Shown: piece after piece, positions 41,734 through 46,473 of the stretch
Numbering within the stretch: position 1 is the stretch's first letter
Layout: each line of letters starts with the position of its first letter
Assembly (NCBI RefSeq): GCF_026967985.1
Contig: NZ_JAPVBJ010000010.1
Coordinates: 124,001 to 188,000 of the forward strand
Length of the DNA: 64,000 nucleotides
Reading direction: 5' to 3'
DNA from: Modestobacter sp. VKM Ac-2984
GTDB taxonomy: Bacteria > Actinomycetota > Actinomycetes > Mycobacteriales > Geodermatophilaceae
Notes under the pieces: model-generated
Databases searched by the model: none
What the model was told of the DNA's origin: nothing
Seen by the model: only the letters and a program-made list of their open reading frames with translations
Translations under genes and position numbers: made by a program

Positions 41734-42831
41734 TCAGTTCCTGCGGGGCTGGTCCTCGCCGGTGACGGCCTGCGCGCGCCGCTCGTCCTCGGTGAGCGCA
41801 TCGGCCCGACCGGGCTCGCCGGTGTCGGTCGCGGCCGGGTCGATCGCGGCACCCTGGACATCGGGCACCTCGCCACGGGTCTTGATGAGGCTGGCCACGG
41901 TGGCGACGAGCAGGACCACCAGGATCACCGTGAGGGACAGCCAGGTCGGGATCGCCGGGATGCTCTCCAGGGGCTCGCGCTCACCGGCGAAGGGGTACTG
42001 GTTCTCGTGCAGCGCCTCGAGGATCAGCTTGACGCCGATGAAGGCGAGGATGACGGCCAGCCCCAGCGACAGGTAGACCAGGCGCTTGAGCAGGCCGCCG
42101 AGCAGGAAGTACAGCTGGCGCAGGCCCATCAGCGCGAAGATGTTCGCGGTGAAGACGATGAACGGCTCGCGGGTCAGCCCGAAGATGGCCGGGATGCTGT
42201 CCAGCGCGAAGAGCAGGTCGGTCGTGCCCAGTGCGAGGAACACCACGATCATCGGCGTCCACAGCTTCTTGCCGTTCTCGACGACCCGGATCTTGCTGTC
42301 GTGGAAGTCCTGGGTCATCGGCAGGACCTTGCGCATCCGGCGGATGAGCCCGTTCTCCTCGTAGTCCTCGTCCTCCTCGCGGTGCCGGACCAGGTTGATC
42401 GCGGTGTAGACGAGGAAGGCGCCGAAGAGGAAGAAGACCCAGATGAACCGCTCGATGACGGCGGCGCCGGCGAGGATGAAGAGGCCGCGGAGCACCAGCG
42501 CGATGATGATCCCGACCATCAGGACCTCTTGCTGGAGCTTCCGGGGCACCCGGAAGCGGGCCATGATGATCACGAAGACGAAGAGGTTGTCGACCGAGAG
42601 CGAGTACTCGGTCAGCCAGCCTGCGTAGAACTCCGTGGCGAACTGGCCGTTCGTCACCGCCAGCACGATCCCGCCGAAGGCCACCGCCAGGCCCACGTAG
42701 AAGACCACCCACAGCGTCGCCTCCTTCACGGAGGGCTCGTGCGGACGACGGACGACGAGGGCGAGGTCGGCGAGCAGCAGGACGGTGAGCCCCACGAACG
42801 TCGAGATCTCGAACCAGACGGGGAGCTCCAC
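41734..42831 (-). CDS. TerC-family membrane protein (paralogue 1)
   Basis: TerC proteins are membrane proteins that move or handle metal ions; several are manganese exporters, often helping metallate secreted proteins. From GTG 42831 the protein has 365 residues and about seven helices. Conserved acidic motifs are SVDNLFVFVIIMARF and TTDLLFALDSIPAIFGLT, and it ends in a charged tail of about 55 residues. The GTG is chosen because a TACAGT box stands 7 nt upstream. It is a tandem paralogue of the gene at 42970..44094 but has a different control region, without the riboswitch. Confidence 0.92.
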   Translation of the reverse strand: MELPVWFEISTFVGLTVLLLADLALVVRRPHEPSVKEATLWVVFYVGLAVAFGGIVLAVTNGQFATEFYAGWLTEYSLSVDNLFVFVIIMARFRVPRKLQQEVLMVGIIIALVLRGLFILAGAAVIERFIWVFFLFGAFLVYTAINLVRHREEDEDYEENGLIRRMRKVLPMTQDFHDSKIRVVENGKKLWTPMIVVFLALGTTDLLFALDSIPAIFGLTREPFIVFTANIFALMGLRQLYFLLGGLLKRLVYLSLGLAVILAFIGVKLILEALHENQYPFAGEREPLESIPAIPTWLSLTVILVVLLVATVASLIKTRGEVPDVQGAAIDPAATDTGEPGRADALTEDERRAQAVTGEDQPRRN

Positions 42832-42838
42832 GGGCGGG

Positions 42839-42863
42839 ACTGTACAAGTTGGTTGTAGCCAAC
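42839..42863 (-). promoter_or_regulatory. Promoter with inverted repeat upstream of TerC paralogue 1
   Basis: The -10 TACAGT (42839..42844, minus strand) is followed upstream by a perfect dyad GTTGG-N6-CCAAC (42848..42863) in the spacer/-35 region. This is a plausible repressor site; the cognate regulator is unknown. Confidence 0.5.
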
Positions 42864-42928
42864 ACCCGGCCAGCCGGGGCGCGCCGGGTGGGCGTCTGGC
42901 CGATGGTGCGCGGTTGCCCGCCGGCGGT

Positions 42929-42956
42929 CCCGGGGACGACGGTCGTCGTCCCCGGG
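42929..42956 (-). terminator. Hairpin terminator of the second TerC gene
   Basis: A perfect 12-bp stem (42929..42940 with 42945..42956) and a 4-nt loop lie 13 nt after the terC stop, separating the two paralogues. Confidence 0.85.
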
Positions 42957-42969
42957 GCCGCACTCGTGA

Positions 42970-44094
42970 TCAGTCGGTGTGTGTCTCCGGTCGGCTGACC
43001 GGCACCCCACGCGGGTCGGCGGGAGTGTCGGCCGTGTCGGTGTCCGGGTCACCCGGCGCACCGATGTGCCGTCCAGTGCTGTCGGCGCCGGGCTCACCGG
43101 CGTCGCGCTGCTCGCGCCGCGCCGCGTCCTTCTTGTTCTTGCGCAGGCTGGCCCAGGTGGTGATCACCAGGGTCACCAGGATGACCAGCAGCGACAACCA
43201 GGTCGGGATCTCCGGGATCAGCGTCACGTGCTCACCGCCGTTGATGAACGGCAACGTGTTCTCGTGCAGGGCGTGGATCAGCAGCTTGATGCCGATGAAC
43301 CCGAGGATGATCGACAGGCCGTAGGCCAGGTACACGAGCTTGTCGAGCAGGCCGTCGATGAGGAAGAACAGCTGTCGCAGGCCCAGCAGCGCGAAGGCGT
43401 TCGCGGTGAACACCAGATAGGTCTCCTGGGTGAGACCGAAGATCGCCGGGATCGAGTCGACGGCGAAGAGGATGTCGGCGCTGCCGATGGCGATCAGCGC
43501 GATCATCAGCGGGGTGATGAACCGCTTCCCCTTGATCTTGGTGATCAACCGGTCGGAGTGGTACTCCTCGGTCGTCGGGAGCACCTTGCGGGTCAGCCGA
43601 AGGACCGAGTTCTCCTTGAACTCCTCGTCATCGTCGTGACCGCCGCTGCGGGCCTGGGCGATCGCGGTCCAGATGAGGAAGCCGCCGAAGATGTAGAAGA
43701 CCCAGCTGAAGTTCTCGATGGCCGCTGCCCCGAGGAAGATGAAGATCGTCCGCAGCACCAGCGCGAAGGCGATGCCGAACAACAGGACCTTCTGCTGCAG
43801 CTCTCGAGGCACGGCGAAGCTCGCCATGATGAGCACGAAGACGAAGAGGTTGTCGACCGAGAGGCTCTTCTCGGTGACCCACCCGGCGAAGTACTCCCCG
43901 GAGTAGGTGCCACCCCAGAAGACGAACACCACCAGGCCGAAGAGCACGGCGATGCCGACGTAGACCGCCGACCACTTGGCGGACTCGGCAAGGGTCGGCG
44001 CGTGCGGCGTGCGCACGTGGCCGATGAAATCGAAGACGAGCATCCCGATGATCGCAGCCACCGTGATGCCCCACACCCACAGGGGGACGTCCAT
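42970..44094 (-). CDS. TerC-family membrane protein (paralogue 2, riboswitch-controlled)
   Basis: The 374-residue protein has about seven helices and the same TerC motifs as paralogue 1: SVDNLFVFVLIMASF and SADILFAVDSIPAIFGLT. The loop between them is Asp/Glu-rich (GGHDDDEEF), and a 50-residue polar tail ends the protein. ATG 44094 has a perfect GGAGG 6 nt upstream that lies in a hairpin downstream of a yybP-ykoY aptamer. Control by Mn2+ makes a manganese-export role likely for this paralogue. Confidence 0.94.
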   Translation of the reverse strand: MDVPLWVWGITVAAIIGMLVFDFIGHVRTPHAPTLAESAKWSAVYVGIAVLFGLVVFVFWGGTYSGEYFAGWVTEKSLSVDNLFVFVLIMASFAVPRELQQKVLLFGIAFALVLRTIFIFLGAAAIENFSWVFYIFGGFLIWTAIAQARSGGHDDDEEFKENSVLRLTRKVLPTTEEYHSDRLITKIKGKRFITPLMIALIAIGSADILFAVDSIPAIFGLTQETYLVFTANAFALLGLRQLFFLIDGLLDKLVYLAYGLSIILGFIGIKLLIHALHENTLPFINGGEHVTLIPEIPTWLSLLVILVTLVITTWASLRKNKKDAARREQRDAGEPGADSTGRHIGAPGDPDTDTADTPADPRGVPVSRPETHTD

Positions 44095-44100
44095 GCACTT

Positions 44101-44229
44101 CCTCCGGTCGTCTGGCTCATGTCAGCACCGGAGGTCTCTCCCACCGGCCCGCGAGCGGGTCGGCCGGCGGCGCCGGGGACCGTGGGATCCCGTGTTGACG
44201 ACACTGCCGCGAGCGGGATACTCCCCTCC
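44101..44229 (-). ncRNA. yybP-ykoY (manganese) riboswitch with Shine-Dalgarno-sequestering expression platform
   Basis: Read on the minus strand, the leader has the class-defining elements. P1 5' strand GGAGG (44225..44229) runs into GGAGUA (44219..44224). P2 is formed by AUCCCG/CGGGAU around GUGUCGUCAACAC (44192..44204), with the conserved CGUCA. P3 is CCCAC/GUGGG with two internal hairpins. The closing GAGACC (44133..44138) follows, and P1 3' strand CCUCC is at 44130..44134. CCUCCGG (44128..44134) can alternatively pair perfectly with CCGGAGG (44101..44107), which is the ribosome-binding site of the terC gene. The class binds Mn2+; the ON logic is inference from the mutually exclusive pairing. 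Confidence 0.9.
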
Positions 44230-44349
44230 ACGTGAGGCCTGCCCGGTCCGGCGCGACAGCGCACCGCCCCCTGCAGCCCAGGCCCCAGGGTCCCCTACGA
44301 ACGGCCGGGCCGCAGAGTTCCCGCAGACGGTGAGGACCTCAGAGCTGAG

Positions 44350-46473
44350 TCAGGCGTGTGCGGCGTCGAACTGCCGCAGCTCCTTCTTCAGCTCGGTCAG
44401 CTCGTCGCGCAGCCGGGCCGCCACCTCGAACTGCAGTTCGCGGGCCGCAGCCAGCATCTGCTCGTTCATCGAGGTGATCATGTCGGCGAGCTCGTTGCGC
44501 GGCAGCCCCTGGACGTCGATCGACCCGGCCTTCGCCTTGCTCCGCGACGACAGCCCCGGCACCGGCGACTTCCCCCGCGACTGCTGGCGCCCCGAACCGC
44601 CCAGCAGCTCGGTCGACGTCATGTCCTCGGCGTCCTCGGCGGCCTTGTAGATGCCGTCGAGGATGTCGACGATCTTCTTGCGCAGCGGCTGTGGGTCGAC
44701 GCCGTGCTCGGTGTTGTAGGCGATCTGCTTCTCGCGCCGCCGGCTGGTCTCGTCGATCGCCTGGGCCATCGACGGGGTGATCTTGTCGGCGTACATGTGC
44801 ACCTGGCCGGAGACGTTGCGCGCGGCCCGGCCGATGGTCTGGATCAGCGAGGTGCCCGAGCGGAGGAAGCCCTCCTTGTCCGCGTCGAGGATCGCCACCA
44901 GCGACACCTCGGGCAGGTCGAGCCCCTCCCGCAGCAGGTTGATGCCGACCAGCACGTCGTACTCGCCCTGCCGCAGCTCCCGCAGCAGCTCGACCCGGCG
45001 CAGGGTGTCGACCTCCGAGTGCAGGTAGCGGACCTTGATGCCGAGCTCGAGCAGGTAGTCGGTGAGGTCCTCGGACATCTTCTTGGTCAGCGTGGTGACC
45101 AGGATCCGCTCGTCCTTCTCCGTACGCAGCCGGATCTCGTGGACCAGGTCGTCGATCTGTCCCTTGGTCGGCTTGACGACGACCTCCGGGTCGACCAGCC
45201 CGGTCGGGCGGATCACCTGCTCCACCACGTCACCCTGGACCCGGCCGAGCTCGTAGTGGCCCGGGGTCGCCGAGAGGTAGACGGTCTGCTTGATGCGGTC
45301 GGTGAACTCCTCCCAGCGCAGCGGGCGGTTGTCCATCGCCGAGGGCAACCGGAAGCCGTGCTCGACCAGCGTGCGCTTGCGGCTCATGTCGCCCTCGTAC
45401 ATGCCGCCGATCTGCGGCACCGTCACGTGCGACTCGTCGATGACGAGCAGGAAGTCGTCAGGGAAGTAGTCGATCAGGCAGGCGCCGGCGCTGCCGGGCG
45501 CCCGGCCGTCGATGTGCCGGGAGTAGTTCTCGATGCCCGAGCAGAACCCGACCTGCCGCATCATCTCGATGTCGTAGGTGGTGCGCATGCGCAGCCGCTG
45601 GGCCTCCAGCAGCTTGCCCTGCTTGTCCAGCTCGGCCAGCCGCTGCTCGAGCTCGGCCTCGATGCCTCCGATGGCCCGCTCCATGCGCTCGGGGCCGGCG
45701 ACGTAGTGGGTGGCGGGGAAGACGAACAGCTCGTCGACCTCGCGGATGACCTCGCCGGTCAACGGGTGCAGGTAGTACAGCCGCTCCACCTCGTCGCCGA
45801 ACATCTCGATCCGGCAGGCGAGCTCCTCGTAGACCGGGAACACCTCGATGGTGTCGCCCCGGACCCGGAACGTGCCGCGGGTGAAGGCGAGGTCGTTGCG
45901 GGTGTACTGCTCGGTGACCAGGGTGCGCAGCAGCTCGTCGCGGTCGCGCTCCTCCCCCACCTTGATCTTCAGCGCCCGCTCGACGTACTCCTCGGGCGTT
46001 CCCAGGCCGTAGATGCAGGAGACCGTCGAGACCACCACCACGTCGCGCCGGGTGAGCAGGCTGTTCGTCGCGGAGTGCCGCAGCCGCTCGACCTCGTCGT
46101 TGACCGAGGAGTCCTTCTCGATGTAGGTGTCGGTCTGCGGGACGTATGCCTCGGGCTGGTAGTAGTCGTAGTAGGAGACGAAGTACTCGACGGCGGCGTC
46201 GGGCAGCAGCTCCTTGAACTCGTTGGCCAGCTGCGCGGCGAGGGTCTTGTTCGGCGCCATCACCAGGGTCGGGCGCTGCACCTGCTCGATCAGCCAGGCC
46301 GTGGTGGCCGACTTGCCGGTGCCGGTGGCGCCGAGCAGCACGGTGTCCTGATCTCCGGCGTTCACCCGCTCAGCGAGCGCCTTGATCGCCGTGGGCTGGT
46401 CGCCGGAGGGCTGGAACTCGCTGACGACACGGAACCGCCCCTGGGTGGGCCGGATGTCGGTGGATGCACGCAC
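44350..46473 (-). CDS. uvrB: UvrB, excinuclease ABC subunit B
   Basis: UvrB is the helicase-like subunit that verifies DNA damage and recruits UvrC. The 707-residue product from GTG 46473 has Walker [14 protein letters not shown] and the beta-hairpin region [21 protein letters not shown]. It also has [14 protein letters not shown], the helicase C motifs ([29 protein letters not shown]), and a C-terminal UVR domain ([20 protein letters not shown]) that contacts UvrC. A TACCGT box stands 7 nt before the GTG. The upstream in-frame extension to 46902 is Arg/Pro-rich and is rejected. Confidence 0.97.

Follow-up and report, generated by a model that had tools for sequence, protein, structure and literature searches.

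The leader of a terC gene on the minus strand of the window (the 64-kb stretch of DNA analysed here) is, with a probability that we put at about 0.88, an Mn2+ riboswitch of the yybP-ykoY class that acts in cis, which lacks the P2 hairpin as does the alx leader of E. coli, and which would turn translation of TerC ON by strand exchange. Its folded part extends from 44229 to 44101, upstream of a gene (42970..44094, minus strand) for a TerC-family membrane protein of 374 aa. The assignment of this protein (PF03741, E=3e-50) agrees with the initial annotation, which had named a terC gene downstream of the leader. The ribosome-binding site is spaced 6 nt from ATG 44094. The gene upstream of the leader, also on the minus strand, is uvrB (UvrB domains, frame ending at 44350); next on the minus strand is a second TerC gene (open frame 41734..42963), before which neither a search with the covariance model R1, described below, nor inspection by eye found an aptamer. 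Shortly past the stop of the first terC lies a GC-rich inverted repeat, GGGGACGACGACCGTCGTCCCC (42932..42953, minus strand), which may serve as a terminator separating the two TerC genes. For TerC-family proteins, roles in Mn2+ detoxification or in the metalation of exported enzymes have been described (PMC10550928, PMC12096827, PMC13274385).

Read from its 5' end, with all features on the minus strand, the aptamer begins with GGAGG (44225..44229), the 5' strand of the switch helix P1.1, which pairs with 44130..44134 in the sensor-closed form. GGAGUA (44219..44224) constitutes the 5' side of L1 and is identical in 74/74 actinobacterial rows of alignment A2, described below, and in alx. It is followed by UCCC (44215..44218), which pairs with GGGA (44142..44139) in P1.2, and by a junction linker at the site of the P2 hairpin (44210..44214). 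This linker has 5 nt, which is too short for a hairpin; its length is 3-6 nt in 74/74 actinobacterial A2 rows, and alx has 5 letters here. The 5' strand of P3.1, CGGCAGUGUC (44200..44209), pairs with its 3' strand (44174..44165, i.e. 44165..44174). L3, GUCAACAC (44192..44199), lies between P3.1 and P3.2, and the P3.2 hairpin (44176..44191) is formed by GGGAUC / GGUCCC with the loop CCAC. A P4 hairpin of two helix segments with 8 pairs (44143..44164) precedes the 3' strand of P1.2, GGGA (44139..44142), and the 3' side of L1, GAGA (44135..44138); the latter belongs to the motif GAGACC, which ends at 44133, and reads GAGA in 72/74 and AAGA in 2/74 actinobacterial A2 rows. L1, consisting of GGAGUA and GAGACC, is flanked by P1.1 and P1.2, which is the arrangement of yybP-ykoY RNAs. 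The element that links the aptamer to the gene is the shared strand CCUCCGGU (44127..44134): its first five bases close P1.1, and all eight pair with the strand of the ribosome-binding site GGAGG, ACCGGAGG (44101..44108), in the OFF form. Within it, CCUCCGG (44134..44128) is the partner of either GGAGG at the aptamer's 5' end or CCGGAGG (44107..44101). The strand (44134..44127) can pair with the aptamer GGAGG or with ACCGGAGG, never with both. The initial annotation had listed the correct letters and coordinates for GGAGG, GGAGUA, GAGACC, CCUCCGG, CCGGAGG, the 6 nt spacing and ATG 44094. In the nomenclature of the literature, its helices P1, P2 and P3 correspond to P1.1, P1.2, P3.1, P3.2 and P4. 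A P2 hairpin in the published sense is absent, with only 5 nt between P1.2 and P3.1. The predicted junction is three-way and not the four-way junction with P2 of the crystal structures; P2 was not taken as defining, because alx is also devoid of it.

The helices were assessed by comparison with relatives. At the DNA level, 30 of the 39 genomes searched, own genome included, had a match; 28 of these yielded a leader, and two (L028, L030) were short and free of the motif. The resulting alignment A1 contains 28 distinct leaders, the window's and 27 relatives, with a structure of 33 pairs in P1.1, P1.2, P3.1, P3.2 and P4. In A1, 96.0% of the cells are paired and 21/33 pairs have changes on both sides (28 distinct rows); the covariation score is 0.360 versus 0.145 in shuffles, and 0/500 shuffles reach any of five measures. 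Sliding the structure by 1-3 columns lowers the paired cells to 33.7-50.1%. Alignment A2 consists of 75 aligned matches, which come from 70 class loci, from E. coli alx and from three of the sister loci; 30 of the class loci came from the class search and 40 were hand-picked for family spread, and two are from the own genome. Note that the A2 loci are high-scoring matches, not a random sample, and that A2 leans towards the structure because the alignment was fitted to the model. With 74 distinct rows, A2 has 95.8% paired cells, both-side changes in 29/33 pairs and a score of 0.633 versus 0.202 for shuffled alignments. For the individual helices in these 74 rows, both-side changes were found in 3/5 pairs of P1.1 (98.1% of cells paired), 4/4 of P1.2 (98.6%), 8/10 of P3.1 (97.7%), 6/6 of P3.2 (93.6%) and 8/8 of P4; in the own genome, P3.1 and P4 contain one A.C mismatch each. 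Covariation supports all five predicted helices. Folding of the single sequence was dropped as evidence for the leader: with z = -0.27 and 72/200 shuffles as good, the fold is ordinary, and its minimum-energy form holds a hairpin over the ribosome-binding site. The evidence for the structure is comparative, not thermodynamic.

From this architecture we propose the following mechanism. At high Mn2+, L1 and L3 would dock around the ion and stabilise P1.1 (GGAGG/CCUCC); with P1.1 closed, the ribosome-binding site would be free and TerC would be made. At low Mn2+, CCUCCGGU would quit P1.1 and form an eight-pair hairpin with ACCGGAGG, which would hide the ribosome-binding site and keep TerC translation off. 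Mn2+ as the ligand and ON as the direction are most likely by analogy to alx and mntP of E. coli. In the 229 nt leader of mntP, as in the switch proposed for the window, the ribosome-binding site is inaccessible without Mn2+ and is freed with Mn2+ (PMC11647493); unlike the window, mntP has, by our own reading of its sequence, the L3 AACAUACU and a hairpin where P2 is expected. With the aptamer core fixed, the computed secondary-structure energies, which exclude the docking energy, are -46.5 kcal/mol for the ON form and -51.1 kcal/mol for the OFF form, i.e. OFF is favoured by 4.6 kcal/mol. When the ensemble is left unconstrained, the pairing probability of CCGGAGG is 0.99-1.00, and that of the tested P1.1 pair is 5e-7. 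Since the OFF form is favoured, Mn2+ must pay about 5 kcal/mol or act during RNA synthesis; under this energy model, it would take docking energy or timing to reach the ON form. The choice between ON and OFF would presumably be made during transcription, before the ribosome-binding site emerges.

In order to be counted as a shared-strand platform, a locus had to offer at least 6 Watson-Crick pairs between the shared strand and a second strand whose end lies 4-15 nt ahead of an in-frame start. We considered 94 distinct actinobacterial loci of the terC/alx type, namely 26 near relatives and 68 class-wide loci, with downstream genes placed by tblastn; L086, L094, L107, L033, L037, L032 and L040, which are non-terC loci or controls, were left out. 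The platform is present in 85/94 loci, and in 59/67 when class-wide loci are taken alone. Nine loci missed it: L091 and L027 show the pairing, with no in-frame start suitably spaced from it, L089, L092 and L105 have five pairs only, L087 and L099 have no good pairing of the shared strand, and L072 and L100 complete the list. The platform was also found when it was used as the sole query. A search of genome contigs for the platform pattern gave at least 117 stretches, of which 80 loci were examined. Among the matches listed, 75 of these 80 are preceded by GGGGAGTA and the L3 motif, and in 74 of the 75 TerC/Alx follows; the sequence of the last one (L202) breaks off after about 110 further bases; the remaining 5/80 show neither the upstream motifs nor TerC/Alx. 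Named hosts among the matches listed are Streptomyces, Mycolicibacterium, Amycolatopsis, Corynebacterium, Blastococcus and Modestobacter. The match nearest to the window among those listed for the 80 loci is from Modestobacter (82.6% over 1123 bases), the next one from Blastococcus (81.2% over 1197 bases), which makes Geodermatophilaceae the probable family of the window. Judged from these sequences, the shared-strand platform is the rule among actinobacterial terC leaders. The characterisation of the platform as unusually compact in the initial annotation therefore fails among these leaders, 85/94 of which share it. A similar logic is moreover at work in the add adenine riboswitch of Vibrio vulnificus, where the 3' strand of P1 hides the ribosome-binding site and the ligand closes P1, turning translation on; aptamer and ligand differ from those of the window, and the strand exchange is alike.

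The frequency of the platform bears on the most serious alternative, which is nevertheless improbable: the same aptamer could act mainly on transcription, through Rho-dependent or intrinsic termination, with the hairpin over the ribosome-binding site being secondary. Rho does terminate in the riboswitch region of E. coli mntP (PMC11647493), and in the leader of a GDT1 gene of the own genome (L037) the strand that competes for P1.1 is not the ribosome-binding site, because it ends 43 nt before the start. In the window, however, a simple pattern scan of the leader strand over 43950..44420 gave no terminator-like site, and an alternative partner ending 4-15 nt before an in-frame start, as in the 85/94 loci, is what a translational switch needs.

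The relation to known Mn2+ riboswitches was examined with two covariance models. The check put forward in the initial annotation, a search with Rfam RF00080 in which a missing hit would count as refutation, found no match for the window's leader: the whole 64-kb window gave no match to Rfam at the gathering threshold, and RF00080 gave none in a 501-base segment containing the leader, with E allowed up to 10. None was reported in 13 near-relative loci, own included (E up to 5), or in 20 class-wide loci (E up to 1), all 33 of which carry the aptamer by motif scan or by R1. Across 39 genomes, own included, no match exceeded the cut-off. In this search, a terC-type locus of G029 (L072) was matched weakly (18.5 bits versus a cut-off of 45), and the better matches (21-28 bits) fell on a sister aptamer (G000:C18 and like loci); the two matches listed for the own genome (G000) do not include the window's locus. 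E. coli alx and mntP are reported Mn2+ riboswitches (PMC9603457). The alx leader, which served as positive control, was likewise not reported by RF00080 (E up to 10 on 351 bases); mntP scored 41.6 bits at a cut-off of 45. As alx is also negative, RF00080 is a poor test for the P2-less form, and we rejected it as uninformative for this purpose. R1, in contrast, was built from A1, i.e. from the window's leader and its 27 relatives with no proteobacterial sequence included, and matches the alx leader with 37.5 bits (E=1e-6 in one search and 1.1e-7 in another). This independent model hence establishes homology to a reported Mn2+ riboswitch. R1 also matches 7/8 sister loci brought in by RF00080, the exception being L036; E. 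coli mntP (L039) was not reported in the R1 search. The current RF00080 model has a detection gap for P2-less actinobacterial leaders, which is a new point here. For C. glutamicum, the leader of cg2157 (terC) has been called with RF00080 at 49.13 bits, and its 5' UTR is transcribed according to RNA-seq (PMC3890552). We observed that a terC leader from a Corynebacterium MAG (L152) has the same platform and an insertion at the P2 site that is able to form a hairpin; such an insertion may explain why RF00080 finds the C. glutamicum leaders and not the others.

The similarity between the window and alx extends to details: both have GGAGUA in L1, GAGACC, the invariant A in L3 (GUCAUUAC in alx), a short linker replacing P2 and a TerC-family target. 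They differ in the strand that competes for P1.1, which ends 68 nt before the start codon in alx and is the ribosome-binding site itself in the window. The fourth base of L3 is A in 74/74 actinobacterial A2 rows, as expected for a metal-contacting adenosine. Alignment to alx, combined with the L. lactis numbering, identifies 44196 as the predicted counterpart of the Mn2+-contacting adenosine. In the structures as described, Mn2+ is held between phosphates of L1 and L3 and the N7 of an invariant adenosine, which is A41 in L. lactis and A48 in X. oryzae, and it stabilises P1.1, the switch helix (PMC6754395, PMC9190785). The L. lactis yoaB and X. oryzae aptamers share with the window the L1/L3 metal site and the switch helix P1.1; they have four helices in a four-way junction and act by transcription antitermination, whereas the window's leader is without P2 (PMC6754395, PMC9190785). 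These findings make it quite unlikely, and less probable than transcriptional control, that a structured leader of the same shape senses another ion or a proton instead of Mn2+. This idea draws on the response of the alx leader, which has the same form, to alkaline pH as well (PMC9603457), and on the L3 letters of the window, which are unlike those of E. coli mntP. Yet alx reporters do respond to Mn2+ (PMC9603457), the invariant adenosine is kept in all 74 rows, and the targets include TerC, GDT1 and a Na/Ca-exchanger-family gene.

The three strands of the platform were finally compared with each other. Over the 93 of 94 loci that have a placed start, the strands of one and the same locus reach a mean pairing score of 7.42, versus 6.45 when strands are swapped between loci (maximum 6.68 in 300 swaps, the pairing search being repeated for each swap) and 3.33 when they are shuffled. 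The value for swapped strands signals that part of the CCUCC/GGAGG likeness is to be expected anyway, GGAGG being a preferred ribosome-binding sequence. Nine loci have a shared strand that is not CCUCC but CCUUC, CUUUC, CUUGU or CCUUG. All nine keep the first 6/6 pairs of the helix with the ribosome-binding site; P1.1 retains 5/5 pairs in eight of them and 4/5 in L025. In 6/9 (L048, L070, L097, L098, L093, L108) all three strands have changed together, the ribosome-binding site having moved to GAAGG, GAAAG, ACAAG or CAAGG along with the 5' strand; in L101, L106 and L025 the site is still GGAGG, and one of its pairs is G.U. It is hardly credible that the ribosome-binding site is covered by a constitutive hairpin and that the complementary upstream GGAGG reflects the usual CCUCC/GGAGG likeness: swapped strands do pair fairly well (6.45 versus 7.42) and single-sequence folding prefers the hairpin, but P1.1 itself covaries in A2, in six loci the 5', shared and ribosome-binding-site strands all differ from the usual letters and are still complementary, and in three further loci with GGAGG the pairing is preserved via one G.U. 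The central proposal of the initial annotation, an Mn2+-type aptamer with the 3' strand of P1 as anti-Shine-Dalgarno, is thus supported by covariation, the R1 match to alx, the letters of the metal site and the co-variation of the shared strand.

Searches with R1 indicate how far such leaders extend. At a cut-off of E up to 0.01 per genome, which lets about four chance matches be expected in the class sample and about three in the phylum sample, R1 has matches in 248/394 class genomes, own included, and in 88/138 genera; in the phylum sample, 62/296 genomes have matches, with 40/62 outside the class. R1 would favour P2-less matches, because it was built from P2-less rows. The own genome contains a third aptamer of the window's kind (G000:C15:262741-262847; L071:442-548) before a TerC gene (PF03741, E=1.3e-53). 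A relative from the same family (L043) has two aptamers 1.3 kb apart (L043:210-320 and L043:1501-1602), the first being followed by a clear TerC, at 69.9% identity; for the second, the match to TerC is weak (29.8%) and lies close to where the locus ends. In the window, by contrast, only the first of the two adjacent TerC genes has an aptamer. Related aptamers also occur in front of other genes. In the own genome, a sister Mn2+-type aptamer (G000:C18:95432-95517; L037:1485-1586, minus strand) with the L3 GACAUGCU precedes the GDT1 gene mentioned above (PF01169, E=4.1e-40) and is matched weakly by RF00080 (24.5 bits). At L033:1485-1587 an aptamer lies before a Na/Ca-exchanger-family gene (PF01699), and at L107:370-471 one lies before a PGPGW membrane protein (PF09656). 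With TerC, and with GDT1 and Na_Ca_ex at sister sites, the aptamers are positioned upstream of Mn2+ export or metalation genes. Aptamer and platform were furthermore observed before a small open frame at L086:340-447 and L094:387-487 (76 and 63 codons, respectively, from the likely start), and in both cases the next gene encodes a protein whose C-terminal domain is of the GreA/GreB type; such a unit is not known to be an Mn2+ target.

Already known are the riboswitch class, its actinobacterial members, the P2-less form (alx) and the strand-exchange logic (add); new are the spread across the class, the gap in detection and the finding that the three strands of the platform co-vary. In titles, abstract openings and passages of the literature on yybP-ykoY/Mn2+ riboswitches, TerC, alx and mntP, we found no description of the actinobacterial terC platform as a rule or of the blind spot of RF00080. 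Taking all results together, we lean, with some reserve, towards a wider reading: the leader would belong to a very large, mostly unrecognised actinobacterial lineage of P2-less Mn2+ riboswitches with a three-way junction that current Rfam misses. The three strands of their platform would co-evolve, the 5' strand of the aptamer copying the ribosome-binding site, and closing the sensor and masking the site would be one and the same strand exchange. Throughout the class, this lineage would be the chief means by which TerC is controlled under Mn2+ overload; in some genomes, relatives would act on GDT1, on a Na/Ca-exchanger-family gene and on a unit of a small ORF and a GreA-like gene. Being short and having a strong pattern, the three-strand platform is a clean test case for the competition of a metal-docked aptamer with a thermodynamically stronger ribosome-binding-site hairpin, and it would offer ready-made Mn2+ sensors for high-GC hosts. 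If the proposed explanation is right, Mn2+ homeostasis in most sampled actinobacteria (248/394 class genomes) has an RNA-level arm acting on translation, which annotation with the current Rfam model would omit.
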